Source: Microbacteriaceae bacterium | Lineage (GTDB): Bacteria; Actinomycetota; Actinomycetes; Actinomycetales; Microbacteriaceae | Reading direction: 5' to 3' | Assembly (NCBI GenBank): GCA_027490915.1 | Contig: JAIXXG010000071.1 | Span: forward strand, 1-36,525 | Length of the DNA stretch: 36,525 bases | Shown: in pieces, positions 3,696 to 24,987 of the stretch | How the letters are laid out: each line of letters begins with the position of its first letter | Numbering within the stretch: the first letter of the stretch is position 1 | Program-made: the position numbers and the translations under genes | Notes under the pieces: generated by a model | What the model saw: the letters and a program-made list of their open reading frames with translations, nothing else | Databases searched by the model: none | What the model was told of the DNA's origin: nothing

Positions 3696-5969
3696 ATGAT
3701 CCCCCGCGGAACCGTCGTGACGGGCCCCTACGCCCCCATCCCCTCCTCCGTCACCCGCACCTCGCTGCGGCTCGGCAGCTGGTTCCAGCGCCACGACGGT
3801 GCGGCGCGAGCGCTCGCGACCCTGGCCGTCGCGCTGGGTGCCGTGTACCTCGCATGGCGCGTCGTCGCCACCTCGGCCGGGGTCGCCCCCGGGCTCTTCT
3901 GGCCGCTGCTCGCCGCTGAGGCGGTCGGCTATGCGAGCTTCGTCATCATGGTCGTCGAGACGTGGCGGCTGCCACCGACACCGCGCCTGCCGGCGCTCGA
4001 CCTCGCGGTCGACATCGTGATCGCCACCTACAACGAAGACGTCGACATCGTCGAGCCGACGGTCATCGGGGCGCTCGCGGTGCGCGGCCGCACCACGGTG
4101 TACCTGTGCGACGACGGACGCCGACCCGAGATGCGGGCGCTCGCCGAACGGCTCGGAGCGGTGTACGTGACGCGCCCGGACAATGCGCACGCGAAGGCGG
4201 GCAACATCAACGCCGTGCTGCCGCGCCTGCAGGGCGACCTGCTGCTCGTGCTCGACGCCGACCATGTGGCCGCGCCGGACATCCTGGAGGCCATGACCGG
4301 CTATTTCGCCGATGATCGCGTGGCCCTCGTGCAGTCGGCCCACTCGTTCCGCAACCACAACTCGGTCATGCACCACGAGTCGGGCCGGCACGAGCAGTCG
4401 CTGTTCTTCGACGTGCTGCTGCCCGGCCGCAACCGGCTCGGCTCGGTCTTCTGGTGCGGATCAGCGGCGGTCATCCGGCTGAGCGCGCTGCGGGAGGTGG
4501 GAGGCATCGCCACGGTCACCTCGACCGAGGACTTCGAGACCTCGCTGCTGCTGCAGAAGGCCGGCTACAGCCTGCTGTACCACAACGAGCACCTGATCCA
4601 GGGGCTCGCCCCGGACAACCTGGCCGCCTACTCGGTGCAGCGCGCCCGCTGGGCCGAGGGCACCCTCTCGGCGTTCCACTGGCGGTTGCGCATGCCGTTC
4701 GGGCGAGGCCTGCGCCCGTCGCAGAAGCTCTCGTACGTCGGAACCCTGCTGCACTACCTGACTCCGCTGCAGCGCCTGACCTTCGCCGTCTACGTCGTGC
4801 TGGTGGGTGCGCTCGGTGCGATCCCGGTCGCGATGCCGGGCATCGAGGGGGTCGCGTTCTGGGCACTCTGGATGCTCGTCGCGGGCCTCACGGCGACCGC
4901 CCTGCATCGGGGTGTCACCGGGCGGGTCGAGGGCGTTCGATCGCTCATGCTCACGCTCGAGCCGCACCTGCGCGCCCTGCCGGCTCTCATCAGCCGCCGC
5001 CCCATGCGTTTTCACGTCACCCCGAAGAACGAGCCGGATCTCGGCGGCTGGGAGGCCGTGCGGTTCGTGCGGCTTCCGCTGGTGGTCGCGCTCGCGCTGC
5101 TGGCTATTCTCGTCGCGCGCGGGGTCGACACCACGGTGATAGCGTTCGGCGGGCAGGGTGTGCTGCCGCCGCTCTCGCTCGCGGCGTTCGCGGTGATCAG
5201 CGTTTTCAGCGTGCTCGACATCGCCGTGACCCTGCAGCTCGCCGTGCGCGCCCATCGGCGACGTCAGCACCGCACGCTGTGGCGCTTTCCCGTCTCGCTG
5301 CCGGCCCGGGTCGACGGCACGGTCGGTCAGTGCGTCGACCTGCACCAGCGCGGCGCGGCGATCGTGGTCGAGCGGTCGGTCGCCGAGCTGGCGACCCAGG
5401 TCGAGATCGAGGTGGAGTGCCGCGCGCTGGACGGCAGTCCGACCCCGGCTCGCGGTGTGCTGACGATCACCTCGCGCTCGGCGATCGGCCCGTCCGGCGC
5501 TCGCGTGCGCATCGGGGGTCCGGTCACCTGGCACGACGACGCGTCGCGCGACCGGGTCAGCGCGCACTGCTACGTCGTCGAGCCCTACCAGGCCCGCAAC
5601 CGGGTGTGGATGCGCCGCGCACCGCGCGTGCCGGTCAGCCTCACCGCGACCATCGGTGCGAGCGACTCGACGTGCGTGGACGTGAGCATCGGCGGCGCCG
5701 CGTTCCTCACCCGATCAACCGATGTCGCGCTGCATCAGCGCCTGCCGATCGAGCTGGTGCTCGACCGCGGCGAGCGCGTGAGCGGCCAGCTGCAGGTGCG
5801 CAACGTCACCGCAGTCAGCGACGGCATGCTGCGGATCGGTGGGGTTGCCGACTGGAGCCACACCGCCTGGCTCACGCGGTACGGGGCAGTGGTTCACGCA
5901 CCCGAGTCGCGGGGGCGCACCCGGGCTGCGTCGCGGCGCAGCGCGAGCGCGGCGCTCAGCGGCCGCTGA
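3696..5969 (+). CDS. BcsA-like membrane glycosyltransferase (family GT2) with two PilZ domains
   Basis: A processive polysaccharide synthase of 757 residues in the cytoplasmic membrane, resembling cellulose synthase subunit A. Membrane helices lie at about 40-60 and 65-88, with more at about 350-400 and 455-515. The catalytic domain has DDG (139-141), DAD (187-189), TED (277-279) and QRARW (315-319), matching the D, DxD, TED, QxxRW set of GT2 synthases. The C-terminus has two PilZ-like domains. The second is canonical for c-di-GMP binding (R640-R644 as RxxxR, D662-G667 as DxSxxG). The first keeps RxxxR (526-530), but the Ser of DxSxxG is His 550. No bcsB or export partner is adjacent, so the polymer is unknown. 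It is convergent with the c-di-GMP phosphodiesterase gene, overlapping it by 14 bases. Confidence 0.87.
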   Translation: MIPRGTVVTGPYAPIPSSVTRTSLRLGSWFQRHDGAARALATLAVALGAVYLAWRVVATSAGVAPGLFWPLLAAEAVGYASFVIMVVETWRLPPTPRLPALDLAVDIVIATYNEDVDIVEPTVIGALAVRGRTTVYLCDDGRRPEMRALAERLGAVYVTRPDNAHAKAGNINAVLPRLQGDLLLVLDADHVAAPDILEAMTGYFADDRVALVQSAHSFRNHNSVMHHESGRHEQSLFFDVLLPGRNRLGSVFWCGSAAVIRLSALREVGGIATVTSTEDFETSLLLQKAGYSLLYHNEHLIQGLAPDNLAAYSVQRARWAEGTLSAFHWRLRMPFGRGLRPSQKLSYVGTLLHYLTPLQRLTFAVYVVLVGALGAIPVAMPGIEGVAFWALWMLVAGLTATALHRGVTGRVEGVRSLMLTLEPHLRALPALISRRPMRFHVTPKNEPDLGGWEAVRFVRLPLVVALALLAILVARGVDTTVIAFGGQGVLPPLSLAAFAVISVFSVLDIAVTLQLAVRAHRRRQHRTLWRFPVSLPARVDGTVGQCVDLHQRGAAIVVERSVAELATQVEIEVECRALDGSPTPARGVLTITSRSAIGPSGARVRIGGPVTWHDDASRDRVSAHCYVVEPYQARNRVWMRRAPRVPVSLTATIGASDSTCVDVSIGGAAFLTRSTDVALHQRLPIELVLDRGERVSGQLQVRNVTAVSDGMLRIGGVADWSHTAWLTRYGAVVHAPESRGRTRAASRRSASAALSGR

Positions 5970-5971
5970 GC
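5954..5971. repeat. 18-bp perfect palindrome spanning both convergent stop codons
   Basis: GCTCAGCGG joined directly to CCGCTGAGC. It contains the TGA stop of the glycosyltransferase and the TGA stop of the phosphodiesterase on opposite strands, so both proteins end in Leu-Ser-Gly-Arg. It has no loop or T-run, so it is not a standard terminator. Confidence 0.8.
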
Positions 5972-8313
5972 ATCGCTGAGCGCTCGGCCGCCCAGCCGGC
6001 GATCTCGTCGATCGGCATCGCCTTCGCCGCCCACCAGCCCTGCCCGTAGCGCACGCCGAGCTCGCGCAGCTGCGCGGCGAGCTCGTCGGTCTCGATGCCC
6101 TCGGCCGTGACGTCGAGGTCGAGCGTGCTCGCGATCGACAGGATGTCGCGGATGATCGCCGCTTGCTGAGCGTCGAGCTGCGGGTCGGGCAGGAAGCTGC
6201 GGTCGAGCTTGAGCACGTCGAGCGGCAGGGTGCTCGCCTGCGCGAGGCTCGAGTACCCGGTGCCGAAATCGTCGAGCGCGACCCGCACGCCCCGGGCACG
6301 CAGGCTCTCGAGCTGCTCCAGGGCTCCCTCGCCGACGAGCAGCGCATGCTCGGTGATCTCGACCACGAGGGAGGTGAGCGGCAGGCCGGTGCGCTCGGCG
6401 GCGTTGACGAGGTAGTCGGCGAGCGTGGGCTCCGCCAGCTGCGCCGCATCGAGGTTGATCGACACCGCGATCCCCTCCAGCGCGCCCGCTGCGGCCGCGC
6501 GCTCCGCACCCCAGGCGGTCAGCGTGCCGTCGATGATCTGCCAGCCCAGCTCGACCGTCAGCCCCGCGCGGGCGATCGCCGGCAGAAACTCGTCCGGCCG
6601 CACGAGCCCGACCCCGGGCCGGTTCCAGCGCACGAGGGCCTCGCACGCGGCAATAGCTCCGGACTCGAGATCGATGATCGGCTGCACATGGGTGACGAAC
6701 TCGCCCGAGCGCAGGGCCGACCGCAGGGCCGACTCCTCGCGCATCGCGTCCAGCAGATGCGCGTCGCGGTCGGGAACGAAGTACCGCACGGCCGGGCGCG
6801 GCTCGGTCGCCTGCGCCGCGGCGAGTGCGGCGGCGGCGCGCTGCACGAGGGCATCCGGATGCGGGGCCCCTGCCGTCTCGACGGCCGCGCCGATCGTGGC
6901 CGAGACGGCCACCTGCTCGCCCGAGACTTCGTGCAGGCGCGTGAGGACGGTCGAGAGCGCGGCGATGGCCCGGTCGGCGTCGACGGCGGTGGGGTACGAC
7001 CCGACGACGGCGAACTCGTCGGCCGACAGCCGCAGCACCTCGGCCGTCGTGCTGATCTGCTCGACGAGCGCTCGGGCGACCGTGACGAGCAGGCGGTCGC
7101 CCTCCGCGGGCCCGTAGGCGAGGTTGAAGTCGGCGAAGCGATTGATGTCGACGAGCGCGAGCGCGACGGCACCCTGGCCGGCCTCCGCGCGGAGCGACCG
7201 TGCCCGCTCGGTCGCGGCGGCCACCGCGGGCTGCAGGTGCTCGCGGTTCGGCAGCTGGGTGAGGGCATCGAAGCGGCGGGCCTGATCGAGGGCGTGCTCG
7301 CGGTGGTCGCGCACGTGCACGAGGTGCAGGATCTCGTTGACGCGGTCGATCGCCGCGAGGGCATCCTCGTCGTCGAGGCCATCGTGCGCGCCGTCGGCTG
7401 GGGCCTCGGCATCGGAAGGGACGTGCTCGTCGCGCACGCGCTCGAGTCGAACGGGCGCGTCCTGCTGCTCGATGACCTGCACGGTGAGACCCGGTGCCAG
7501 CTCGGCGAGGTCGGCGAGGGCCGTGCGCATGATCGTCGGGGTCTCGACCCCGGCGGCGACCGCCTCGCTCCATGCTCCCGCGCGATCGGCGAGTCGCTGT
7601 CGCAGCTCCAGGCGCCGTCGAGCCTGCTCGAGACGGGCCGTCTCGGCGCGCAGCCGCTCCGAGGCCTCCCGGTAGGTCGATCTCAGATCGGCGGCGATCC
7701 AGCCGGCCAGCCCCGCGCCGAGCAGGATGATGAGACCGGCGAGGATCGCCTGGGTCTGCTCGGTGATCGCCCGCCGGTTGATCGCCTCGGCGGCCTGTGC
7801 GCGGCGGACCTCCTGGTACACCGTGCTCAGCTCCCGCGTTCGCACCTCGAACTCATCGACGACAGTGTCGGCCGACCGGCGCTGCGCGAGACGCTGCTCG
7901 ACGGTTCCGTCGACGAGCGAGCGCACGAGCCCATCGATCTGCAGGAGGCTCGACCGAAATGCAAGGTCCGTCAACTCGTACGTGGTCACGTCAGAGACGG
8001 TGCGCACCTGAAGGCGCTGGCCCAGCAACGCCCGCGCGATCTGCACATCACGAGCGGTTGCGCCGCCACGGGCCCAGCGGTCTAGCTCGAGGATCACGCC
8101 GAACGATTCCCGCTGCACCAGCGTCACTGCGCTGCCATCCGCCTCCTCGCTGTAGAGGCCCTGCAGCTCGTCATCGTGCGCGGCCACGGAGATGACCGAC
8201 GTCAGCAGCAGCGAGACGACCGCGGCCATGAGCACGCCGAGCAGACCGTACTGCCGACGCTTCAGGCCGAGCAGCCGGCTGCCGCGCGCCATCTCTCCGC
8301 CCCCGGATTCCAT
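5956..8313 (-). CDS. Membrane GGDEF-EAL protein: predicted c-di-GMP phosphodiesterase with extracytoplasmic sensor (DcpA-like layout)
   Basis: A 785-residue protein predicted to cleave c-di-GMP to pGpG. One membrane helix (about 22-46), an extracytoplasmic helical domain of about 140 residues, a second helix (about 188-208), then a coiled-coil-like linker (215-245) and cytoplasmic domains. The GGDEF domain has SADEF (430-434) in place of GGDEF, so it is probably not a cyclase. The EAL domain looks complete: EAL 558-560, N620, E652, DDFGTG 681-686, K702, E738. The ATG at 8313 is 8 bases after the stop of the sulfite-oxidase-fold lipoprotein gene, so the two are co-transcribed; the lipoprotein is the likely outside partner of the sensor domain. 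Alternative: the GGDEF domain is an allosteric GTP-binding module. Confidence 0.88.
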   Translation of the reverse strand: MESGGGEMARGSRLLGLKRRQYGLLGVLMAAVVSLLLTSVISVAAHDDELQGLYSEEADGSAVTLVQRESFGVILELDRWARGGATARDVQIARALLGQRLQVRTVSDVTTYELTDLAFRSSLLQIDGLVRSLVDGTVEQRLAQRRSADTVVDEFEVRTRELSTVYQEVRRAQAAEAINRRAITEQTQAILAGLIILLGAGLAGWIAADLRSTYREASERLRAETARLEQARRRLELRQRLADRAGAWSEAVAAGVETPTIMRTALADLAELAPGLTVQVIEQQDAPVRLERVRDEHVPSDAEAPADGAHDGLDDEDALAAIDRVNEILHLVHVRDHREHALDQARRFDALTQLPNREHLQPAVAAATERARSLRAEAGQGAVALALVDINRFADFNLAYGPAEGDRLLVTVARALVEQISTTAEVLRLSADEFAVVGSYPTAVDADRAIAALSTVLTRLHEVSGEQVAVSATIGAAVETAGAPHPDALVQRAAAALAAAQATEPRPAVRYFVPDRDAHLLDAMREESALRSALRSGEFVTHVQPIIDLESGAIAACEALVRWNRPGVGLVRPDEFLPAIARAGLTVELGWQIIDGTLTAWGAERAAAAGALEGIAVSINLDAAQLAEPTLADYLVNAAERTGLPLTSLVVEITEHALLVGEGALEQLESLRARGVRVALDDFGTGYSSLAQASTLPLDVLKLDRSFLPDPQLDAQQAAIIRDILSIASTLDLDVTAEGIETDELAAQLRELGVRYGQGWWAAKAMPIDEIAGWAAERSAMLSGR

Positions 8314-8321
8314 GTGCTCGC

Positions 8322-8855
8322 CTAGTCGATCACGGCGATCGTGCGCAGACTCCAGTTCCAGGCGTCGAGCAGCGCGAAGGCGGGCGAATCGGAGTCGAAG
8401 ACGATGCGGATCGGGCCGCCCTGATCCATCGGGATGAGCTCGCCATCGCGGAAGACCGCCAGCAGCGCGTCGTTCTCGGTCCACTGCGCGACGGTGTCGG
8501 CGTACCGGTAGTCGTTCAGGGCGATCGTCTCGATGCGCGCCTCAGTGGGAACTCCGGCAGCAGACAGCAGCTCGGCGAGCGGCACGCCGGTGAACGACTG
8601 CTCCTGCTCGACGAAGGGCTCGAGGATCGTGATCTCCACGGTCGCCAGCTGCTGCAGCTCACCGTAGGTGAAATCGACCGTCGTCGCACCCTCGACGGTC
8701 AGCACCACCTCGTCGGTCGCCGGAGGATCGACGGCGAATCCGCCGTACGCGCTCTCGCTCGACGGCTCGGGGGCCGGTTCGGGGCTCGCCGTGCATCCGG
8801 CCAGTGCCAAGACGACCAGGGCGGCCGCGGCCGCCCAGCGGATCGACGTGTTCAT
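8322..8855 (-). CDS. Sulfite-oxidase-fold (molybdopterin/pterin-binding-like) lipoprotein, PruR-like
   Basis: A 177-residue lipoprotein (signal peptide, lipobox LAGC, Cys 21), then an acidic/Pro linker and a small domain typical of the oxidoreductase molybdopterin-binding fold: FTYGELQQLATVEI, FTGVPLAELLSAAGV, LNDYRYAD, DGELIPMDQGGPIRIVFDSD, WNWSLRTI. The family includes sulfite oxidase/YedY enzymes, but short stand-alone forms such as Agrobacterium PruR bind a pterin and control a neighbouring DcpA-type GGDEF-EAL protein. Here the neighbour is exactly such a protein, 8 bases downstream. No molybdenum-ligating Cys was recognised after the lipidated Cys 21, so sensing fits better than catalysis. 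The ATG is preceded by an AG-rich AGAAGAGAGAAG tract. It lies 50 bases downstream of the diguanylate cyclase gene. Confidence 0.78.
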   Translation of the reverse strand: MNTSIRWAAAAALVVLALAGCTASPEPAPEPSSESAYGGFAVDPPATDEVVLTVEGATTVDFTYGELQQLATVEITILEPFVEQEQSFTGVPLAELLSAAGVPTEARIETIALNDYRYADTVAQWTENDALLAVFRDGELIPMDQGGPIRIVFDSDSPAFALLDAWNWSLRTIAVID

Positions 8856-8905: not shown

Positions 8906-10537
8906 TCAGGCGCGGGCGGGGGTGCGCGCGACCGCGCTCGCCCCCCACGCCCGCAGGGTGTCGTCGGAGATGTCGTCGGGGGGTTCGACGACCAGCAGCG
9001 GGGCGTCGACCGTCTGCGCGAGGGCGGCGGCGAGGCGGGCGACGAGGCCGGCCGGGCTCGTGCGGGTGAGATTCAGCACGGCCTCGTGATCGAGACTGAT
9101 GAGCGTCGGCGAGACCTGCGCGATCATCCGCAGGTCACCGCCGTGCACCGCCCCGACGCCGCCGAGCGCCACGCTCACCTGACCGAGCGCGCGCAGCTCC
9201 TCCGCCGCGAGCCGCAGCTCGATCGCCGACGGCTGCGCATCAACGAGCAGGGTGAGACGGGATGCGGGCCGACGCTCGCGGATCGCCGCGACCAGATCAG
9301 CCAGCACGCCGTCGCGGGCCCAGCCCCGGCCACGCGGCTCGAGAACGAGAGCGGTCGGGCGCGCGCGGTCGATCGATCGCAGTGCGTCGAGAACGGTCTC
9401 CGCCGCCTCGTCCGCCGCGACCGTGCAGAGCTCGCCGCGGAGCACGACGTGCGCTCCCCCCTCGACGGCGTCGCCGAGCGGGTCGAGAGGCAGCGCGCGC
9501 ACAGGCGCGCGGCCGCGCTCGACCTCCTCCGGAACAGCCCGACCGTCGAGCGGATCGCGCACCAGGATGCGCCCGGCGCCGTCCTGCATGGCGATGCCGC
9601 CGCCGATGCGCTTCGCCTCGTACATGAGGCCGTCTGCCGTCGCGATGATCGCCTCGAGCGGCTCGCCCTCCGGCCACAGGGCGACACCGGCGCTCGCCGC
9701 CACCGCGACGACCGCGCCCGACTCGAGCACGAGATCGTGCGAGACCGCGCCGATGATGCGCTGCGACAGCGACACCACCGACGACTCGTCGAGCACCTGC
9801 TCGGCGACGATGACGAACTCGTCCCCGCCGAGGCGCGCGACGAGGTCGTGCGGGCGCACCTGCGCGACCAGTCGTTGCGCGGTGCCGACGAGCACCTCAT
9901 CGCCCGCGCCGTGCCCGTGCGCGTCGTTGACCGCCTTGAAGCCGTCGAGGTCGAGGTAGATGACGGCTCGCAGGAAGGAGCCGCTGGGGCGCTGGGCGGC
10001 GAGCTCGTCGAGACCGGGGCGGTTGAGCAGCCCGGTCAGCGCGTCGCGCAGGGCCCCCAGCCGCAGCGCGTCACGCTCGCCCTCCTGACGGATGAGCGTC
10101 GGCAGCAGTGCGGCGCCGGTGCGCAGCGCCTCGATGCCGTCGGGCGAGCGGCGCTGCGCGGCATCGACGGCGAAGACCAGCCGCAGGTCGAACGGGCCGA
10201 CCCCGGCGACGTCCGCCACGATCAGCTCGTCGACCCCGGCCGCGGAGAAGTCATCGACGAGCGCCCGCGTGCAGCGCACGTCGGAGACGGGCACGATCAC
10301 GGGCTCGGGATACCGCTCGGCGCCCGGGTCGACGGGGTCGACGGGGTCGGTGTGCCGCCGCAGGGGGTCGAGCGCCGACGGTGCCGCGGGCGAGACCCGC
10401 CAGGGGTCGATCACCATGCCGCGCTCGTCGACCCACGCGGCACGAGCCGCCCACCATCCGCGCTGGGCGAGGAAGTCGTCGAGGAACGCCGCGACGAGCT
10501 CGCGCGATCGGTTCTGGGTCAGGCGGTCACGATACAA
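8906..10537 (-). CDS. Cytoplasmic diguanylate cyclase: N-terminal sensor-like region, intact GGDEF, degenerate EAL tail
   Basis: A 543-residue soluble protein predicted to make c-di-GMP from two GTP. Residues 1-155 form an unassigned, possibly GAF-like region. The GGDEF domain runs about 160-325 with DALTGLLNR, LDLDGFKAVND and an intact GGDEF (237-241). An inhibitory I-site RPHD (228-231) stands five residues before it, so product inhibition is expected. The C-terminal 200 residues follow the EAL outline (LLVDAQPSAIELRLAAEELRALGQ) but lack the EAL motif, DDFGTG and the catalytic Lys, so this part is probably a dead or binding-only EAL domain. The likely start is TTG at 10537, with GGGAG 7 bases upstream, overlapping the response-regulator gene by 11 bases. 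Upstream codons in frame belong to that gene. Confidence 0.85.
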   Translation of the reverse strand: MYRDRLTQNRSRELVAAFLDDFLAQRGWWAARAAWVDERGMVIDPWRVSPAAPSALDPLRRHTDPVDPVDPGAERYPEPVIVPVSDVRCTRALVDDFSAAGVDELIVADVAGVGPFDLRLVFAVDAAQRRSPDGIEALRTGAALLPTLIRQEGERDALRLGALRDALTGLLNRPGLDELAAQRPSGSFLRAVIYLDLDGFKAVNDAHGHGAGDEVLVGTAQRLVAQVRPHDLVARLGGDEFVIVAEQVLDESSVVSLSQRIIGAVSHDLVLESGAVVAVAASAGVALWPEGEPLEAIIATADGLMYEAKRIGGGIAMQDGAGRILVRDPLDGRAVPEEVERGRAPVRALPLDPLGDAVEGGAHVVLRGELCTVAADEAAETVLDALRSIDRARPTALVLEPRGRGWARDGVLADLVAAIRERRPASRLTLLVDAQPSAIELRLAAEELRALGQVSVALGGVGAVHGGDLRMIAQVSPTLISLDHEAVLNLTRTSPAGLVARLAAALAQTVDAPLLVVEPPDDISDDTLRAWGASAVARTPARA

Positions 10538-11207
10538 GGCTGGTCTCCCGACCGCTGGAGCGGCGCACCCGGATGCGCCCGGACTGCCAGAGACGGATGG
10601 CCTCGACGCGCGGGTTGGACTCGCGGCTCGTGTCGAGCCCGAGCACGGTGTACAGCCGCACGAGCAGGCTCTCGGCGGCCCGCACCGACGTGCCCCGCGC
10701 CTCGGCGAGCGCGCGCGTCGTCGCGCCCGCGGCGAGCATGCGCAGCACCTGCGCCTGCGCCGCATTGATGATGATCACGGGGTCGTCGTCGGGGTCGGGG
10801 GTCTCGATCGCCGTTCCGGTCATGGCGGCGTGCACGGCGTCGAGGATCTGATCGACCGACCGGACCGTCGACTTCACGAGGTAGACGACATCGCTCGGCA
10901 GGAGGTGCGCATCCGAGACCGCGAGCTCGGGCGAGCGGTGGTTCGAGAGCACGACGCAGGCCACCCACGGGCGCTGCTCGCGCACCTCGCCCACGAAGGC
11001 CGCGCCCGACTGCCCGTCGGTGAAGTTGAGGTCGCACATCAGCAGGTGCGGGTCGATGTCGCTGAGCACGAGCCTCGCCTCCTCCGGCGAGGCGGCGACG
11101 GTGACATCGTGACCGTTGAGGCGCAGGCCGTCGGCGACGAGGGCGGCGATGAGCGCATCGTCGTCGACGACGAGGATGCGCCACGGTCCGGATGAGCGCG
11201 GGATCAT
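10527..11207 (-). CDS. Response regulator with receiver and LuxR-type DNA-binding domain
   Basis: A 226-residue two-component regulator. The receiver domain has the acidic pocket D15-D17, phospho-acceptor D59 (LMCDLNF) and K112 (YLVKST). A linker rich in Asp (137-143) leads to a LuxR/NarL-type helix-turn-helix at about 147-200 (NAAQAQVLRMLAAGATTRALAEARG, then a recognition helix). The ATG overlaps the TGA of the histidine kinase gene as ATGA, so the kinase is the likely phosphodonor. It is translationally coupled to the diguanylate cyclase gene downstream, so phosphorylation state and c-di-GMP synthesis may be tied together. The target promoter is unknown; autoregulation of this operon is a reasonable guess. 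Confidence 0.87.
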   Translation of the reverse strand: MIPRSSGPWRILVVDDDALIAALVADGLRLNGHDVTVAASPEEARLVLSDIDPHLLMCDLNFTDGQSGAAFVGEVREQRPWVACVVLSNHRSPELAVSDAHLLPSDVVYLVKSTVRSVDQILDAVHAAMTGTAIETPDPDDDPVIIINAAQAQVLRMLAAGATTRALAEARGTSVRAAESLLVRLYTVLGLDTSRESNPRVEAIRLWQSGRIRVRRSSGRETSLVS

Positions 11208-13930
11208 GAGCGGCCTCCTCTCGGGCGGCGATCGAGGGCCGTGTGCACGGCCATGAGCAGGGTCGAGGTGGTGAGCGGCTTGACGAGGAAGCCCGCGCAC
11301 CGAGCACGCACCTCGTCGGGGATCGATCCGGCATCCTCCCGGCCGCTCATGAGCACGATGGGCACGGATGCGGCGCTCGCCATGAGCCACCGCACGAGGC
11401 CGACGCCGTCGCCGTCGGGCATGGTCACGTCGCTCAGCACCAGATCGATCGAGCGCGTCATGGCGAGCTGGCGCTGCGCCTCGCCGCCGCTGCGCGCCAC
11501 GATCACGCGGTAGCCGTGGGCGACGAGCAGCTGCCGCACGAGCCGGCGGATCGCCGGCTCGTCGTCGACGACGAGCACGGTGCGCCCGTCGCCGCGCACG
11601 AGGTCGTCGTCGACCGTGACCGGCGCGTCGGGGGCGGCCCCGTCGGCGGCGGGCAGGGTGAGGGTGAAGCGCGAGCCGGTGCGGCCGTCGCTGTCGACAT
11701 CGATCGAGCCGCCGTGCGCGCGGATGATCGCCGCGACCATCGGCAGGCCGAGCCCGGTTCCCTTGCCGACGGGCTTGGTGGTGAAGAACGGCTCCCACAG
11801 GCGGGCGATCACCTCGGGGCTCATGCCGTGGCCGGTGTCGATGACGTCGATCACGAGAACAGAGCCGCTCTCGTCGTCGCGCGGCTCGAGGCGGGCATCC
11901 ACGGTGATGACCCCCGGCGCCGTGATGGCATCGTTGGCGTTGCTCACGAGGTTGGCGAGCACCTGCAGCAGCTGGGTGGCGTCGCCGACCACGACCGTGC
12001 CGGCCGGCGGCGGCGAGATCGCCAGGTGCACGCCCTCGGCGAGGGTCTCGCCGACCATGCGCTCGAGCTCGGCGAGCAGCGCCCCGACATCGACGGGGTC
12101 GGTGCCGCTCTCGACGCCGCGCGCGAAGGTGAGCACCTGGCGCACCATCGCGGCCCCGCGACGCGCCGCCGTCTCGATCATCTCGGCGGTCTCGGCGTCG
12201 GGAGTGCCGGCGAGGGAGTGCCCGAGCAGCTGCGCGGCCAGGGTGATGGGCGTCAGAACGTTGTTGAGGTCGTGCGCGATACCGCCCGCGAAGGTGCCGA
12301 GCGACTCCAGCCGCTCCGCCCGCCGCAGGGCCTCCTCACGCGCGAGCTCCTCGGTGATGTCGACCGCGACCGAGAGGATCGACTCGGGCTGCCCCGCGTC
12401 ATCGCGCATGAGCTGCCACCGGGAGGCGACGACGAGGTCGCGGCCGTCGGGCGTGCGCACGGCGACCCGCCCGGCCCAGTGCCCCTGCGCGAGCACGGCC
12501 GTGGTGGCCTGAACCCGCACCTCGCTGTCGATCTCGAGCAGCTCATCGGCGGTGAAGCCGATCACGGCATTCGCATCCCAGCCGTACAGCGCGATCGCGC
12601 CCGCATTGGCGTAGCGGATGCGGTGATCGAGGTCGCGCACGACGATGGCGTCGCGCGAGATGTCGAGCAGACCACCGAGAGTGGCCAGCTGATCCTGCGC
12701 CTGCTCGTAGGCCTGCCGCGCGGTCTCGGCCTCGGTGATGTCGCGCAGGTGCACGGCGAGGCCCTGGCCAGTCGGATACGCCGTGACGTCGATCCAGATG
12801 CCGCGCTCGGTCCACCAGCCCCGCGCCTGCACGGTCGACGACTGCTCGACGGCGTCGCGGAACGGTCGCTCGAACTCGCTTCCGGCGATCTCGGGGATGA
12901 CCTCCCAGATCGGCTCGCCGATGATCGCTTCCCGATCGAGGCCGACGAACTCGACCATGCGGTCGTTGACGAAGCTCACCCGCCACTGCGCGTCGATGAC
13001 GGCGAAGCCGTCGGTCATGGCGTTGACCGTGCTCGACAGCAGCTGCTCGACGGCGATGCGCTGGCGCTGCTCGACGACCGCCGCCGTCACGTCGTGGGCG
13101 GCACCGCTGAGAACCCGGCTGCCGTCGGAACGGCTGGCGGAGACCCGGCCGACGAGCCGCACGTGGCGCTCGCCGGGAGCGCTCTCGTCATGGGGATACC
13201 CGGCGTCCGAGACCGCCTGGGCACCATCGGCGCGATCGGGGTTCAGCGCGAGGGTGATGTCGAGCGTGCGCTGCTCGCGGGCGCAGCGCTCGAGGGAGCG
13301 TGCCAGTCGAGCGGCGTCGGCCGGGCCGAGCATGGCCGTGAGAGCCGCGAGGTCGCGGGGCGTGCGCCCGCGCAGCTCAGGAAGCTCCCCCGACCAGCCG
13401 AGGGCGCCCGTCGCGAGGTCGAGCGTCCATCCCACAACGCCGGCGATGCGGCTGGCGAGCTCGAGCAGCGCGGTGTCGCGCTGGCGGTCGCGCTCGGCCT
13501 CGGATGCCTCGCTGAGGTTCTGGGTGATGACCAGGGCGCCGACCACGGTGCGCCCGTCGTCGAAGAGCGGCACGAAGGTGATCGCGAGATCGCAGAGCTC
13601 GCCCGAGCGCTTGACGCCGTCGGCACGCGCCCGCACCCCGTCACCCGCGAGCGCGTCGTCAATCGCCGCCTGGATGCGGCGCCGCTGGGCAGGCACGATG
13701 ACGTCGATCATCGGGCGGCCGAGCACCTCGCCGCGGGCGTAGCCCGTTCGTCGGCTGAGAGCGAGGTTGCCGTCGATGATGACGCCCTGCGCATCGATGA
13801 CCATGACCCCGTCGTCCTGGCTATCGGCGAGGAAGCTGTCGAGCCGCGCCGCGTGCAGGGCGCGGAAGACCGGGCTCGGGCTCGCCCCCTCCGGCGCCGC
13901 CTGCCACTTCTCGTAGGCGAGCGGCATCAC
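11204..13930 (-). CDS. Soluble multi-PAS hybrid histidine kinase with C-terminal receiver
   Basis: 908 residues with no membrane segment, so it senses a cytoplasmic or diffusible signal. About four PAS domains lie at 30-155, 160-290, 300-410 and 420-540. The dimerisation/phospho-acceptor helix has GGIAHDLNNVLTP with the catalytic His. The ATPase domain has ANLVSNANDAI (N box), DTGHGM (G1) and GKGTGLGL (G2). The C-terminal receiver has DDEP, Asp 834 (LVLSDVTMPDG) and Lys 884. This is an NtrB-like histidine kinase core in a hybrid. The first codon could be GTG at 13930 or ATG at 13927; a GAGG lies upstream of both. It is the first gene of the five-gene run that ends with the phosphodiesterase. 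The receiver may pass phosphate on or damp signalling to the LuxR-type regulator. Confidence 0.88.
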   Translation of the reverse strand: MMPLAYEKWQAAPEGASPSPVFRALHAARLDSFLADSQDDGVMVIDAQGVIIDGNLALSRRTGYARGEVLGRPMIDVIVPAQRRRIQAAIDDALAGDGVRARADGVKRSGELCDLAITFVPLFDDGRTVVGALVITQNLSEASEAERDRQRDTALLELASRIAGVVGWTLDLATGALGWSGELPELRGRTPRDLAALTAMLGPADAARLARSLERCAREQRTLDITLALNPDRADGAQAVSDAGYPHDESAPGERHVRLVGRVSASRSDGSRVLSGAAHDVTAAVVEQRQRIAVEQLLSSTVNAMTDGFAVIDAQWRVSFVNDRMVEFVGLDREAIIGEPIWEVIPEIAGSEFERPFRDAVEQSSTVQARGWWTERGIWIDVTAYPTGQGLAVHLRDITEAETARQAYEQAQDQLATLGGLLDISRDAIVVRDLDHRIRYANAGAIALYGWDANAVIGFTADELLEIDSEVRVQATTAVLAQGHWAGRVAVRTPDGRDLVVASRWQLMRDDAGQPESILSVAVDITEELAREEALRRAERLESLGTFAGGIAHDLNNVLTPITLAAQLLGHSLAGTPDAETAEMIETAARRGAAMVRQVLTFARGVESGTDPVDVGALLAELERMVGETLAEGVHLAISPPPAGTVVVGDATQLLQVLANLVSNANDAITAPGVITVDARLEPRDDESGSVLVIDVIDTGHGMSPEVIARLWEPFFTTKPVGKGTGLGLPMVAAIIRAHGGSIDVDSDGRTGSRFTLTLPAADGAAPDAPVTVDDDLVRGDGRTVLVVDDEPAIRRLVRQLLVAHGYRVIVARSGGEAQRQLAMTRSIDLVLSDVTMPDGDGVGLVRWLMASAASVPIVLMSGREDAGSIPDEVRARCAGFLVKPLTTSTLLMAVHTALDRRPRGGRS

Positions 13931-17639: not shown

Positions 17640-17648
17640 CGCGGGTGC

Positions 17649-17654
17649 TACCGT
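17649..17654 (+). promoter_or_regulatory. Candidate -10 box of the heliorhodopsin gene
   Basis: TACCGT, giving a leader of about 38 bases with AAGGAG at 17686-17691, seven bases before the ATG. Heliorhodopsin therefore has its own promoter and a strong ribosome-binding site. Confidence 0.5.
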
Positions 17655-17698
17655 GGCGCAACCCGTCGGGAGCATCCGACGCACGAAGGAGTGACGTC

Positions 17699-18502
17699 AT
17701 GGCGAAGAAGGTCTACACCCCCGAGCAGCAGATCGACCGGTTGCGCGTCTACAACATCGTCGCGGGCAGCCTGCACCTGCTGCAGGCCATCGGCTTCGTG
17801 GTGATCCTGACGATGCTGAGCACGCAGGTGCTGTTCGCGGTCACCGCCGACTACCTGGCGGGCCCTCCCGGTGTTCCGCTGCCGCCCGAGCGGGTGGTGC
17901 TGTTCGAGGTCAACATCGGCGTCGGCGTCGTCGCCTTCCTCGCGCTCAGCGCCTTCTTCCACTTCCTCATCTCGAGCCCGTGGTTCTTCGGCCGCTACAA
18001 GAACGGCCTGCTGCAGAACCGCAACTACTTCCGCTGGACGGAGTACGCACTCAGCTCGTCGATCATGATCTGGCTGATCCTCGCCATCAACGGCGTGACC
18101 GACGTCGGCGCCCTGTTCGCGGTCTTCGCGGTCAACGCCGCCATGATCCTGTTCGGCGCGCTGCAGGAGAAGTACGAGCAGCCCGGCTCGGGCGGTCTGC
18201 TGCCGTTCATCTTCGGCTCGATGGTCGGTATCGTGCCCTGGCTCGTGATTCTCGTCTACTTCTTGCGCATCGGAACCGAGAGCGACGTCGAGACCCCCGG
18301 CTTCGTCATCGGCATCGTGATCTCGCTGTTCGTGTTCTTCAACACGTTCGCGATCAACCAGTGGCTGCAGTACAAGCAGGTCGGCAAGTGGAAGAGCTAC
18401 CTGCAGGGCGAGCGCAGCTACATCACCCTGAGCCTCGTCGCCAAGACGGCGCTCGCGTGGCAGGTGTTCTCGGGCGCGATCATCCCGGCGCTCACGAGCT
18501 GA
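17699..18502 (+). CDS. Heliorhodopsin (retinal-binding seven-helix membrane photoreceptor)
   Basis: A 267-residue seven-helix protein closely resembling heliorhodopsin 48C12 from memory. The Schiff-base Lys is K249 in SLVAKTALAWQVFSG (helix 7). The counterion is E115 in RWTEYALSSSIMI (helix 3). Other family hallmarks are HLLQA (H26), SAFFHFL (H88), NAAMILFGALQEKYEQP, FIFGSMVGIVPW and QWLQYKQVGKWKSYLQGERSYI. Heliorhodopsins bind all-trans retinal, have an inverted topology with a cytoplasmic N-terminus, show slow photocycles and usually do not pump ions; a signalling or enzyme-regulating role is suspected. The gene is alone, bounded by repeats and a strong hairpin. No carotenoid or retinal synthesis gene is in the window. 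Confidence 0.95.
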   Translation: MAKKVYTPEQQIDRLRVYNIVAGSLHLLQAIGFVVILTMLSTQVLFAVTADYLAGPPGVPLPPERVVLFEVNIGVGVVAFLALSAFFHFLISSPWFFGRYKNGLLQNRNYFRWTEYALSSSIMIWLILAINGVTDVGALFAVFAVNAAMILFGALQEKYEQPGSGGLLPFIFGSMVGIVPWLVILVYFLRIGTESDVETPGFVIGIVISLFVFFNTFAINQWLQYKQVGKWKSYLQGERSYITLSLVAKTALAWQVFSGAIIPALTS

Positions 18503-20683: not shown

Positions 20684-23572
20684 TTACTCGCTCAGAGCGA
20701 GGGCGCGCTCGAGAGCCGCCTGCAGGCGCTCGTCGGCCTCGGCCGCGCGCACCAGGTCGTTCTCGGCGTACGCCGCCTCGCGGTCGAGCAGGGCCTGGCG
20801 GGCATCCTGCAGCGCCGCCGCCAGCTCGGCCGAGATCTCGACACCCGGCTCGGTCGGGTCGGTCGGCTCGGTGGGGTCGGTCGGCTCCGTCGGGTCGGTG
20901 GGATCGGTCGGGTCGACGTCGCCGTCGCCCGCGTCGGCGCCCGAGTCGCCGCCGAAGAGGGCGTCGAGGGCCTCGTCGAGGGTGTCTTCGAACGCGATCG
21001 AGTCACCGAAGGCGACGAGCACCTTGCGCAGCAGCGGGAAGCTCGTCTCACCCGTCGACCGCACGTAGACCGGCTGCACGTAGAGGAAGCCGCCGCCGAC
21101 CGGGAGGGTCAGCAGGTTGCCCTGCAGCACCTCGGTCTCGCCGCGCTGCAGCAGCGCGAGCTGGTTGGCCACCTCGGTGTCGGAGTTGAACTGGTTCTGC
21201 ACCTGGCCGGGGCCGGGGATCGTCTGCGACGGGAGCGTCAGCAGGGTGAGCTTGCCGTAGTCCTCCCCCGCATCCGCATTCGCCGCGAGGTAACCGGTGA
21301 GCACGTTGCGCTCGTTCTCGCTCGCGGTGCGCGGAATGAAGGTCGAGTACAGCGTGAAGCCCGGCTCGTCAGCCCCCGGAACCTGCATCGTCAGGTAGTA
21401 CGGCGGCTGCAGGGTCGGTGCCGCGGCGGGCGACGTCGGGTCATTGGGCGTGCGCCACTCGTCGTCGGTCGAGAAGAACGAGCCCGGGTCGGTCACGTGG
21501 TACGCGCCGAGGATGTTGCGTTGCACCTTGAACAGGTCGGCCGGATAGCGCACGTGCGACAGCAGCTGCTCGCTCATCTCCGACGCCGGCTCGAGCGTGG
21601 TCGGGAAGATGTTCTGCCACGTCTGCAGGATCGGGTCCTCCGTGTCCCACGCGTACAGCGTCACGCTGCCGTCGTAGGCGTCGACCGTGGCCTTCACCGA
21701 GTTGCGGATGTAGTTGATCTGGTCGAGCGGGAAGGCCGGAGCCGGCGTGTACGTGTCGGCGATGGCCTGACTGAGCGCCACCGTCGTCGAGTACGGGTAG
21801 TTCGCCGTGGTCGTGTAGCCGTCGACCACCCAGACCACACGCCCGTCGACGATCGCCGGGTACGGGTCGGAGTCGAGCGTGAGGTACGGCGCGGCCTTCT
21901 GCACGCGGTCGAGCGGGTGGCGGTCGTAGAGGATCTGCGACTCGTCGGTCACCGCCTCCGACAGGAAGATCTGCTCCGACTGGAACTTCATCGCGTAGAG
22001 CAGGCGCTTGAACACGTTGTCGAGCGCCGGGCCGCCGTCACCGGTGAAGGTGTAGGTGGCGTTGCCCTCCTGCTCGCCGCTGCCCTCCGAGGGGAAGTCG
22101 AGCTCGAGGTTCTCGCCGCCGCCGACGATCGAGTATGCGGGCGAGAACTCGCCGAAGTAGATGCGCGGCTGGTACTCGCCGAGCTCGCCGGTGAGCGAGC
22201 CGTCGGCCGGGATGCCGCCCTCGAGGAACAGCGGGCGGCCGTCGTCGGTGCGCTGGTTGCCGTAGGCCGCCACCACGCCGTAGCCGTGCGTGAAGACGAT
22301 CGTGTTGTTGTACCAGTTCTGCGAGGTCTGCCCGTCGGGGTTCAGCTCGCGCACCGAGATCACGGTGTCTTGCGTGCGGCCGTCGATCTCGTAGCGCCCC
22401 ACGTCGAGGAACTCGGGGAACTGGTAGTACTGACGGAACTGCTCGAGCTGCGCGAACGCGTCCGACACCAGAGCGGGGTCGATGATGCGGATGTTCGCCG
22501 TCGTCTCCGCGTCCTCCCGCAGTGCGCCCTGCTCGGCGTCGGTGACCGCGTCGTACGAGATCTCCTCGATGCCCGAGACGTTGTACGCGTCGCGGGTGGC
22601 CTCGATGTTGCGCTCGATGTACGGCGCCTCGACGGTGCGGGCGCTCGGTTCGACCTGGAAGCGCTGCACGATCCACGGGTAGACGCTGCCGATGAGCAGC
22701 CCGCTGATGACGAGCAGGGCGGTGCCGACGATCGGCAGCCGCCAGCGGCCGATGACCGCGGTGATGAGGAACAGCACCGCGACGAGCATCGCGATGCCGG
22801 CGAGGATCGCCCGGCCCGGGATGGTCGCGTTGACCTCGGTGAAACCGGCGCCGATGGCGAGGAAGCCGTCGCTCGGCTGCACGACCGTGGCGTACTGGTC
22901 GAGCCAGATGCTGACGCCCTGCAGCGCGGCGTAGAGCGCCGCGGTGATGGCGAGCTGGATGCGCGCCGTGCGCGAGATGCGGATCTCGCGGCCGTTGATG
23001 CGCAGTGCGCCATAGAGGTAGCTCGTGGCGAGCGCGGCGAGCCCGGCGAGCAGCACGACGGCCGAGGCGAAGGCGACCACGCCGCGCCAGAACGGCAGTT
23101 CGTAGACGAAGAACGAGATGTCGAGACCGAACTGCGGGTCGGTCTGGCCGAAAGACGTGCGGTTCCACCACTGCAGCACGAGCTGCCACTGGCCGGCGGC
23201 GGTCACGCCCGCGAAGAGGCCGAGCACGGCGGGGATGCCGAGCATCGCGACCTTGCGCAGCGGCTCGACGACCTCCTGGTAGCGGTCGAGCTGCGAGTTG
23301 AGCTTCGCGTAGACCGGCCGCGAGCGGTAGGCGATCTGCAGGCTCGCCCAGACCGGCAGGAACATCGCGAGGAAGCCGACGAGGAACATGCCGCCCGTCG
23401 CGATCCACTGCGTGGTCAGCACGGTGAGGAACCCGAGCTGCTCGTACCAGAGCACATCGGTGTAGACGTTCGCGAAGACGAAGAACAGCACGACCAGCAC
23501 ACCGAGGATGGCGGCGGAGATCGCGAGGGTCGAACGGGAACGATTGGCGGGCGGCGCTGCGGCGGTCGTCAC
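20684..23572 (-). CDS. UPF0182-family large integral membrane protein
   Basis: A 962-residue protein of the actinobacterial UPF0182 family (M. tuberculosis Rv3193c type). The N-terminal third has about seven membrane helices (first at 17-38; VLWYEQLGFLTVL and PVWASLQIAYRSRPVYAKL are family landmarks). The remaining 600 residues form an extracytoplasmic domain. It ends with an acidic low-complexity linker of repeated Asp-Pro-Thr/Glu-Pro-Thr (nucleotides about 20852-20920) and a coiled-coil-like helix. The biochemical function is unknown; no catalytic motif was recognised. The start is GTG at 23572, preceded by an AG-poor leader. It follows the PDZ-Lon protease gene on the same strand after 143 bases. 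Confidence 0.9.
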   Translation of the reverse strand: MTTAAAPPANRSRSTLAISAAILGVLVVLFFVFANVYTDVLWYEQLGFLTVLTTQWIATGGMFLVGFLAMFLPVWASLQIAYRSRPVYAKLNSQLDRYQEVVEPLRKVAMLGIPAVLGLFAGVTAAGQWQLVLQWWNRTSFGQTDPQFGLDISFFVYELPFWRGVVAFASAVVLLAGLAALATSYLYGALRINGREIRISRTARIQLAITAALYAALQGVSIWLDQYATVVQPSDGFLAIGAGFTEVNATIPGRAILAGIAMLVAVLFLITAVIGRWRLPIVGTALLVISGLLIGSVYPWIVQRFQVEPSARTVEAPYIERNIEATRDAYNVSGIEEISYDAVTDAEQGALREDAETTANIRIIDPALVSDAFAQLEQFRQYYQFPEFLDVGRYEIDGRTQDTVISVRELNPDGQTSQNWYNNTIVFTHGYGVVAAYGNQRTDDGRPLFLEGGIPADGSLTGELGEYQPRIYFGEFSPAYSIVGGGENLELDFPSEGSGEQEGNATYTFTGDGGPALDNVFKRLLYAMKFQSEQIFLSEAVTDESQILYDRHPLDRVQKAAPYLTLDSDPYPAIVDGRVVWVVDGYTTTANYPYSTTVALSQAIADTYTPAPAFPLDQINYIRNSVKATVDAYDGSVTLYAWDTEDPILQTWQNIFPTTLEPASEMSEQLLSHVRYPADLFKVQRNILGAYHVTDPGSFFSTDDEWRTPNDPTSPAAAPTLQPPYYLTMQVPGADEPGFTLYSTFIPRTASENERNVLTGYLAANADAGEDYGKLTLLTLPSQTIPGPGQVQNQFNSDTEVANQLALLQRGETEVLQGNLLTLPVGGGFLYVQPVYVRSTGETSFPLLRKVLVAFGDSIAFEDTLDEALDALFGGDSGADAGDGDVDPTDPTDPTEPTDPTEPTDPTEPGVEISAELAAALQDARQALLDREAAYAENDLVRAAEADERLQAALERALALSE
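20852..20920 (-). repeat. In-frame repeat coding Asp-Pro-Thr / Glu-Pro-Thr
   Basis: A short run of near-identical 9- and 18-base units inside the UPF0182 gene, encoding alternating DPT and EPT. It is a candidate site of length variation between strains. Confidence 0.75.
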
Positions 23573-23715: not shown

Positions 23716-24855
23716 TCAGCCCTCGCAGCGCGGAAGCTCCTCGAGGTCGTCACCGTCGGCGATCGCCTCGAGCACCCCGATCGCCTCATCGAGCGTGCCG
23801 ACCGCGAACACCTCGAGACCGCTCGGGATGCTCCCCGCGACCTCCCCGCAGTTCGCCAGCGGAGCCAGGAACCAGTCGGCACCCGCGCCCACCGCGCCGT
23901 GCATCTTCTGCACGATCCCGCCGATCGGCCCGACGGTTCCGTCTGCCGCGATGGTGCCCGTGCCCGCCACCTCGGCCCCGCCCGCGAGCGAGTCCGGCGT
24001 GAGGGTGTCGATGATGCCGAGCGCGAACATCATGCCCGCGCTCGGACCGCCCACGTTCTCGAGCTCGATGGTCACCTCGAATGGGAAGACGTACTCGCCC
24101 GCGATGAGCACGCCGATGACGGGAACGCGCGGCTCGGCGTCGCTGAGCTGGGGGGTGACCTCGATGGTGCGCTCCGAGCCGTTGCGCAGGAGGGTGAGCG
24201 TCGCGGGCTCGGCCGTGCCGTTGTCGGCGATCGCGGCGCGCAGCGCCGTGACATCCCGAACCGGCTCGTCATTGACCTCGAGGATGATGTCGTCGCCGCG
24301 CACGACCCCCTCGGCCGGGCTGCCCTCGAGGGTCTCGACGACGCGCAGCTGGCTCTCGTAGGGCTCGCCGAGCGTGCGCAGCGCGGCGGCGATGGCCTCC
24401 TGCTGCGAGTTCTCCATGTCGATGCGGCTCTGCTCGCGGCGGTCCTCCGTGCTCACGCCGGGCGGGAACACCGCGTCGATCGGCACGACGGCCTGGCTGG
24501 GGTCGAGCCAGGCGCGGATGACCTCGAACCACGACGGCGGCTGCTCGCGGTTGCCGTAGATGGTCACGGTCGTGAGGCTCAGCGTGCCCGCGGTGTCGTA
24601 GGTGGGCTCGGTCGGGATCTCGATGAGCGGCACCTCCTCATCGCCGACGGTGACCGAGCCGAGGGTGTCGATGACGGGCCCGGGCCGCTCGATCACGTAG
24701 GGCGAGGGCAGCACGGCGAGGCCGAAGACGCCGAAGAGCGTCAACGACAGCAGCAGCCAGCCGACCCGGCGCCCGCGCTGGCGCGCGTCGACGACGATGG
24801 GGTCGTCGTGCGGGTCGACCGCGTCGCCACGGGCATCGACGGTGAACAGGCTCAC
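23716..24855 (-). CDS. Membrane-anchored PDZ / Lon-type serine protease (YlbL-like)
   Basis: 379 residues: a cytoplasmic start, one membrane helix (about 32-52), a PDZ domain (about 168-240) and a Lon-like proteolytic domain (about 245-370). The Ser-Lys dyad is visible as S272 in GGPSAGMMFALG and K317 in GGIVQKMHGA. The family includes Bacillus YlbL and M. tuberculosis Rv3194c, surface proteases involved in envelope or division control. The start is GTG at 24855 with GAGAGGAG upstream. It is divergent to the DUF2342 gene and precedes the UPF0182 gene, the same arrangement as in Mycobacterium. Confidence 0.88.
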   Translation of the reverse strand: MSLFTVDARGDAVDPHDDPIVVDARQRGRRVGWLLLSLTLFGVFGLAVLPSPYVIERPGPVIDTLGSVTVGDEEVPLIEIPTEPTYDTAGTLSLTTVTIYGNREQPPSWFEVIRAWLDPSQAVVPIDAVFPPGVSTEDRREQSRIDMENSQQEAIAAALRTLGEPYESQLRVVETLEGSPAEGVVRGDDIILEVNDEPVRDVTALRAAIADNGTAEPATLTLLRNGSERTIEVTPQLSDAEPRVPVIGVLIAGEYVFPFEVTIELENVGGPSAGMMFALGIIDTLTPDSLAGGAEVAGTGTIAADGTVGPIGGIVQKMHGAVGAGADWFLAPLANCGEVAGSIPSGLEVFAVGTLDEAIGVLEAIADGDDLEELPRCEG

Positions 24856-24974
24856 CGGGCTCCTCTCGGGGGCTCTGCGGGGCCGCGGAGGGCCTCGGGC
24901 GGGTGTTCGCCCACGGCGCAGAGCCGCGGGGGTCAGCCTAGGCGAAAACCCATCGGTCGCCGAGGCGTGCGCAC

Positions 24975-24980
24975 TAGCGT
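24975..24980 (+). promoter_or_regulatory. Leaderless -10 box of the DUF2342 gene
   Basis: TAGCGT, seven bases, then ATG. No ribosome-binding sequence of usual spacing. Confidence 0.5.
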
Positions 24981-24987
24981 AGGAATC

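Follow-up and report, generated by a model that had tools for sequence, protein, structure and literature searches.

The stretch of DNA analyzed here, positions 1 to 36,525 of contig JAIXXG010000071.1 from a Microbacteriaceae bacterium (assembly GCA_027490915.1; hereafter the window, 36,525 nucleotides), encodes a lipoprotein related to PruR, the exported pterin-binding protein of Proteobacteria, directly before a membrane protein related to its partner DcpA. The pair is probably a lipid-anchored actinobacterial variant of PruR-DcpA in which the pterin-loaded lipoprotein would drive degradation of cyclic di-GMP (c-di-GMP), a reading drawn from sequence, predicted structure and analogy with Agrobacterium tumefaciens. 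An initial annotation had proposed such a pair, and the proposal was supported by the PruR matches of the lipoprotein, by its placement in a tree and by the linkage of the two genes in relatives. The features of the lipoprotein gene were as follows.

8322..8855, minus strand: PruR-like lipoprotein with a SUOX-type pterin-binding fold, 177 amino acids (Pfam, predicted fold, PDB matches, tree)
8793..8804, minus strand: lipobox LAGC, residues 18-21 (sequence)
8508..8516, minus strand: N114-D115-Y116, matching N102 and Y104 of A. tumefaciens PruR (motif and alignment)
8406..8408, minus strand: Arg150 in GGPIR, SUOX-like and unlike Proteobacterial PruR (alignment)
8352..8360, minus strand: W166-N167-W168, W168 matching the pterin-site Trp160 (alignment)

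The lipoprotein is PruR-like

Sequence, predicted fold and tree all mark the lipoprotein as PruR-like. A lipobox lipoprotein with a sulfite oxidase-type fold had been described in the initial annotation, and both parts of that description were confirmed. The signal sequence and lipobox were judged by inspection, with Cys21 at the end of LAGC being the sole cysteine of the protein, and the length of 177 amino acids matched the exported PruR size of about 170. Pfam family PF00174 (oxidoreductase molybdopterin-binding) matched above its cut-off (8.7e-10), while the top PDB matches in both sequence and predicted-fold searches were four solved PruR proteins. Prediction of the lipoprotein alone gave a SUOX-type fold closer to solved PruR than to the enzymes, and the known pterin-site residues were found in its sequence. 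The geometry of the pocket was read from aligned residues and the fold rather than from coordinates.

The pterin site of PruR was defined as Trp160, Tyr104 (or Phe) and Asn102 (or Asp), the role of N102 and Y104 in the A. tumefaciens site being given in the available text of a 2026 review (PMC13259868). Across a 40-row PruR alignment (A5) the Trp and Tyr were present in 40/40 rows each, and the third position was Asn in 28 and Asp in 12. The column of the cysteine that ligates molybdenum cofactor (Moco) was a gap in 24/24 actinobacterial and 14/14 Proteobacterial PruR rows, and among the 40 rows those of L115 and L132 had one cysteine somewhere in the core. The equivalent of Arg150 was Arg in 24/24 actinobacterial PruR and 17/17 SUOX rows and in 0/14 Proteobacterial PruR rows. 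In a tree of hand-picked rows (24 actinobacterial, 14 Proteobacterial, 1 Deinococcus and 17 SUOX-type), the lipoprotein clustered with Proteobacterial PruR, apart from the 17 sulfite oxidase-type rows, with support of 100/98.

A DcpA-like partner with a divergent sensor

The features of the partner gene were the following.

5956..8313, minus strand: DcpA-like protein of 785 amino acids, with a transmembrane helix, an extracytoplasmic sensor, a second transmembrane helix, a degenerate GGDEF and an EAL domain (Pfam, hydropathy)
7747..8178, minus strand: extracytoplasmic sensor, residues 46-189, predicted helical bundle (hydropathy, fold prediction)
8107..8109, minus strand: Glu69, the WX7E Glu (hhalign register)
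8131..8133, minus strand: Ser61 at the WX7E Trp position (hhalign register)
7012..7026, minus strand: SADEF, a degenerate GGDEF signature (sequence; kept in sister copies)
6634..6642, minus strand: EAL signature of the phosphodiesterase domain (Pfam, alignment)

The spacing of 8 bases that had been noted between the genes was confirmed, as the partner ATG at 8313 follows the end of the lipoprotein stop codon by 8 nt. The two-helix architecture with an extracytoplasmic domain, SADEF and EAL was also upheld. A hydropathy script placed transmembrane helices at about 27-45 and 190-208, 144 residues apart, and Pfam gave GGDEF (4.6e-23) and EAL (2e-58), with no family above its cut-off in the region preceding GGDEF. 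A PDB search with the GGDEF stretch gave no match at a threshold of 1e-8. Alignment with solved EAL proteins showed that EAL, N (SINLD), E (EITEH), DDFG, K (LKLDRS), AEGIE and GQG are all retained, which we take to be the catalytic residues.

The window shares SADEF with each of the five genus relatives read, of which one is truncated. By motif, degenerate SADEF/SSDEF signatures characterized the window and Microcella/Rhodoluna-type copies while GGDEF was intact in mycobacterial and other copies, so on this motif alone the window copy departs from DcpA-type dual cyclase and phosphodiesterase proteins. Since the GGDEF half is degenerate here, no output other than EAL activity is expected. The sequence does not reveal the sign of the switch, and with a degenerate GGDEF half the pterin-loaded lipoprotein might inhibit the phosphodiesterase instead, raising c-di-GMP and polymer synthesis. 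We regard this opposite sign as unlikely, given that the A. tumefaciens PruR-pterin complex promotes degradation in the available text of the review (PMC13259868), and continue with the reading in which the loaded lipoprotein favors degradation.

The initial annotation had also likened the membrane protein to DcpA; its sensor appears to be a divergent form of the DcpA type, in which the Trp of the WX7E motif was not retained. The position of the Glu carried E or D in 35/36 sensor rows (set A6, the window plus 35 of 38 partners, the near copies L113, L117 and L118 being left out). The Proteobacterial set comprised 15 rows from 18 loci after exclusion of Roseibium, Deinococcus and the wrong open reading frame (ORF) of L138. 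When compared by hhalign through three bridging rows the sets matched at P 7.8e-6 and 1.9e-4, these rows having been chosen after being seen; the bridged score was 30.5, whereas 60 column shuffles reached no more than 16.3, and joint-set scores were 22.2-23.9 (P 0.0055-0.0033) against at most 16.5 in shuffles. The bridge was repeated without L089 because that locus has a Proteobacterial-like PruR, and it persisted; L089 by itself gave no match to either actinobacterial set (P 0.28 and 0.15). A MAFFT register pairing the WX7E Trp with Tyr53, and without a Glu, was set aside, and the hhalign register that pairs E69 with the Glu was used. A PHROGs search with the sensor gave no match. The sensor therefore appears to be a divergent DcpA type, distantly homologous through bridging sequences, with the Glu kept and the Trp lost.

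Simple pterin or molybdenum cofactor

MoaC is an enzyme of Moco synthesis, and GTP cyclohydrolase I is the starting enzyme of pterin synthesis. GTP cyclohydrolase I was present in 15/15 PruR-carrying genomes and MoaC in 8/15. MoaC was not found in five genomes at least 99% complete (that of the window, at 99.98%, and G012, G022, G139 and G061) or in the draft genomes G020 and G025, while the same search detected it in 11/14 control genomes. The lack of MoaC in five near-complete Microbacteriaceae together with GTP cyclohydrolase I in all fifteen carriers points to a simple pterin rather than Moco, so that a ligand made by these Microbacteriaceae themselves can be a pterin but hardly Moco. Of the "pterin or cofactor" sensing in the initial annotation, the pterin thus stands and the cofactor is disfavored for Microbacteriaceae.

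The same results bear on whether the lipoprotein is instead a small oxidoreductase that uses Moco, or a degenerate form of such an enzyme with a redox role, which precedes the EAL gene as a matter of operonic convenience. Its Pfam domain is named after molybdopterin oxidoreductases, an NCBIfam sulfite dehydrogenase model matched weakly and far under its cut-off, and the Arg150 of GGPIR is shared with every SUOX row. Yet the lipobox contains the only cysteine, a gap stands at the Moco Cys position, the nearest structures are PruR, the gene is linked to a sensor protein and MoaC was not found in the genome, so this alternative is very improbable. A Moco-dependent SUOX enzyme in particular was rejected for want of a molybdenum-ligating Cys and of MoaC in the genome.

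Linkage, distribution and anchoring

Co-occurrence of the two genes in relatives had been named as a check. Among 26 genomes of the genus, PruR and the partner N-terminal region were both present in 6 and both absent from 20, and the pair was side by side in 5/5 further genus genomes carrying both genes. Chance neighborhood was rejected on the basis of this co-occurrence and the synteny in relatives.

A draw of 398 family genomes, evidently without the other five carriers of the genus, gave full-length PruR-type matches (E below 1e-30) in G000, G139 and G061; other family matches listed were at 1.2e-12 or worse and ended before the C-terminal Trp region. Across 396 genomes of the phylum, full-length matches (E below 1e-26) occurred in 9 including the window's own, the next best being 3.4e-14. 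In one of these, the draft genome G675, the contig concerned (L094) is probably Proteobacterial and stray, and it was kept out of the actinobacterial rows. A search of the 396 genomes with the sensor alignment gave strong matches (E <= 8e-9) in 7, all PruR-positive, two of them by construction because the alignment contains the sensors of the window and L131 (G448). Ten further phylum genomes had partial sensor matches at 1.9e-4 to 1e-3.

A scan of titled genomes gave 39 loci, 38 with actinobacterial titles, including Microcella, Rhodoluna, uncultured actinobacteria, Mycobacterium, Mycolicibacterium and others. A partner ORF adjoined PruR in 38/39, L125 being without one because its contig ends 448 nt on. 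With script-chosen starts, 34/38 gaps between the genes were between -4 and +8 nt, and the others were 28, 93, 76 and -50. Among 36 partner proteins including that of the window (set A7, the window plus 35 of 38; L096 is truncated, and L101 and L123 are cut by contig ends), EAL matched 30, GGDEF 30 and HisKA 6.

A lipobox-type Cys was found in 33/39 loci by a loose rule and 27/39 by a stricter pattern. The lipid-anchored setting that had been proposed was thus supported by the lipobox, while anchoring was not universal and the range was wider than Microbacteriaceae. Five of the six PruR without a lipobox precede a kinase-type partner, and one is at a contig end; L133 is at least one case of a kinase-type partner with a lipobox PruR. 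In L120, L123, L126, L128 and L132, PruR without a lipobox stands with a partner bearing histidine kinase motifs, loss of the anchor accompanying the change of output.

Outside the Actinobacteria, a Deinococcus plasmid (L021 2890-5898) encodes a PruR-type protein whose N-terminus resembles a lipobox, followed by a PAS protein and response regulators, and the family therefore extends beyond Proteobacteria and Actinobacteria. Among Proteobacterial plasmids, by annotation, genes for a 6-carboxytetrahydropterin synthase and an SDR are near the PruR-EAL pair of one from Paroceanicella (L019 2282-2638 and 1275-2042), and folE2 is near that of one from Paracoccus (L024 1711-2763).

Gene neighborhood

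The pair is flanked by further genes related to c-di-GMP and signaling.

3696..5969, plus strand: cellulose synthase-like glycosyltransferase with PilZ, convergent, overlapping the end of dcpA by 14 nt (Pfam, PDB)
8906..10765, minus strand: diguanylate cyclase, the upstream neighbor, with intact GGDEF and EAL below cut-off (Pfam)
10527..11213, minus strand: response regulator protein (Pfam)
11204..13930, minus strand: PAS hybrid histidine kinase, first gene of the putative operon (Pfam; block syntenic in relatives)

The listed start of the diguanylate cyclase ORF is probably too early. In these Microbacteriaceae the PruR-like/DcpA-like pair adjoins the glycosyltransferase, which matched PilZ (5.8e-9, Pfam) and BcsA structures in the PDB (9e-55) and scored 291 bits against TIGR03030, under the model cut-off of 699. 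The same block order was observed in four further genus genomes, and a fifth has the three genes for which its 4.2-kb contig leaves room. In this fifth draft genome (L017 1-1940, L096 2235-3845) the partner gene is interrupted before its EAL part and PruR is short by about 10 residues, which may be an assembly fault. A PilZ glycosyltransferase was located in the flanks of 6/41 loci (L085, L086, L095, L097, L129 and partly L098) and in none of the mycobacterial loci; the flanks of the 41 loci covered up to about 6 kb and less at contig ends.

Elsewhere, the contig carrying this c-di-GMP locus also encodes a heliorhodopsin (17645-18502, plus strand; PF18761, 1e-92), a UPF0182 membrane protein (20684-23572, minus strand; PF03699, 1.1e-271) and a Zincin_2 metallopeptidase (23899-26391, plus strand; PF10103, 3.1e-111).

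Proposed mechanism and points against it

In the proposed mechanism the lipoprotein would be anchored through its lipid on the external side of the membrane and loaded with a small, probably reduced, pterin. The loaded form would bind the DcpA-like protein at its helical extracytoplasmic domain, and the cytoplasmic EAL domain of that protein would then be set to degrade c-di-GMP supplied by the nearby diguanylate cyclase. The adjacent PilZ glycosyltransferase, a candidate synthase of a cellulose-like polymer, would read c-di-GMP, and extracellular pterin would therefore tune surface polysaccharide through a pterin-gated EAL protein and a PilZ polymer synthase. Lipid attachment, pterin binding, the interaction and which way it acts, the enzyme activities and the regulation of the glycosyltransferase are our inferences.

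Several observations weigh against this reading. The tree program warned of long branches at the split between PruR and SUOX. The WX7E Trp was found in 0/36 sensor rows, leaving that motif incomplete, and direct hhalign comparison with the Proteobacterial sensors was weak (P 0.022 with 37 actinobacterial rows, L120 and L126 being dropped by a helix rule, and P 0.09 with 35 rows, the number also used with the bridging rows), so that homology of the sensors depends on bridging sequences picked post hoc. The locus is absent from 20/26 genus genomes, 6/39 relatives have no lipobox-type Cys, and no sensor match was found in G595 and G675, two of the nine PruR-positive phylum genomes. MoaC was detected in one of eight Microbacteriaceae tested (G015, a draft with 4% contamination) and in all seven carriers tested outside the family, and because of the latter the Moco argument is limited to Microbacteriaceae. 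Finally, in G751 the sensor occurs a second time, on a GGDEF-only protein without a neighboring PruR. Around this copy (L144 195-1544, reverse strand) the 5 kb that were read contained no PruR motif, and a PruR pair is located elsewhere in that genome.

A fold search of the predicted sensor gave no match at E <= 0.001, and the weak matches listed were NarQ, QseE and chemoreceptor ligand domains; TorS was not among the listed matches, which is uninformative either way. This resemblance, the loss of the Trp and the GGDEF-only copy would suit a helical sensor that binds a small ligand of its own, as NarQ and chemoreceptors do, while the lipoprotein only delivers, stabilizes or sequesters something, and no PruR-type gating occurs. 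Such an arrangement seems rather unlikely to us, and a PruR-DcpA variant that promotes c-di-GMP degradation is the reading we favor.

Relation to known systems

Pterins as extracellular c-di-GMP signals have one worked pathway, for which the available text of the 2026 review describes conservation in Proteobacteria (PMC13259868). There, A. tumefaciens PruR with a reduced pterin binds the periplasmic domain of DcpA and biases it toward c-di-GMP breakdown, and the system limits attachment and cellulose. The review's similarity network spans "bacterial and archaeal" proteins, and its available text does not contain Gram-positive, actinobacteria, actinomycet-, Firmicutes, monoderm or lipoprotein (PMC13259868). 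No report of an actinobacterial PruR was among the literature matches listed, a scope outside which lies the primary papers' view of non-Proteobacteria.

Like the Proteobacterial system (PruR structures 7KOS, 7KOU, 7KP2, 7KOM and 7RKB), the window locus combines a SUOX-type fold lacking the molybdenum cysteine, the N/D-x-Y and Trp of the pterin site, an exported protein of about 170 residues encoded directly before a protein with the order transmembrane-sensor-transmembrane-GGDEF-EAL, and a link to cellulose-type polysaccharide. Unlike Proteobacterial PruR, the lipoprotein has a lipobox, the SUOX-type Arg150, a second Trp (W166) and F81 where 11/14 Proteobacterial rows have W, and unlike DcpA the sensor is without the WX7E Trp and GGDEF is degenerate in Microbacteriaceae-type copies. 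PruR-DTB systems (PruR paired with a histidine kinase that has a DcpA-type sensor) are resembled by the 6/36 partner proteins that match HisKA and have a related sensor region, whereas the window partner is a GGDEF-EAL protein. Compared with sulfite oxidase/MsrP-type Moco enzymes of PF00174, the lipoprotein also has a shorter C-terminus, besides lacking the molybdenum-ligating Cys and a detected MoaC in its genome. QseG-QseE (9M08), a lipoprotein with a sensor kinase, is among the closest known systems. The anatomy of the locus, with its predicted lipid tether, pterin site, sensor, phosphodiesterase, opposing cyclase and PilZ synthase, fits the A. tumefaciens logic.

What appears new is the lipid-anchored actinobacterial form with R150 and W166, lacking the sensor Trp and phosphodiesterase-only by motif in Microbacteriaceae. 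These findings suggest that a pterin switch of Gram-negative Proteobacteria also operates, in altered form, in Gram-positive bacteria. More tentatively, and with less confidence than not, the actinobacterial proteins may form a long-separate, membrane-tethered branch ranging from Microbacteriaceae to mycobacteria, with an interface rebuilt around the Glu without the Trp and with phosphodiesterase-only, GGDEF-EAL or kinase outputs. Since R150 is retained here and absent from Proteobacterial PruR, this branch might sense another pterin, probably an anionic or phosphorylated one, that the community releases.

In such a branch the switch would work in cells that can keep the binding protein only if it is tethered. 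In hosts lacking MoaC, simple pterin and Moco would be distinguishable, and the natural variants at R150, W166 and the missing WX7E Trp would be material for studying what sets pterin specificity. For Microbacteriaceae, the pair is a candidate input to the control of polysaccharide by c-di-GMP.

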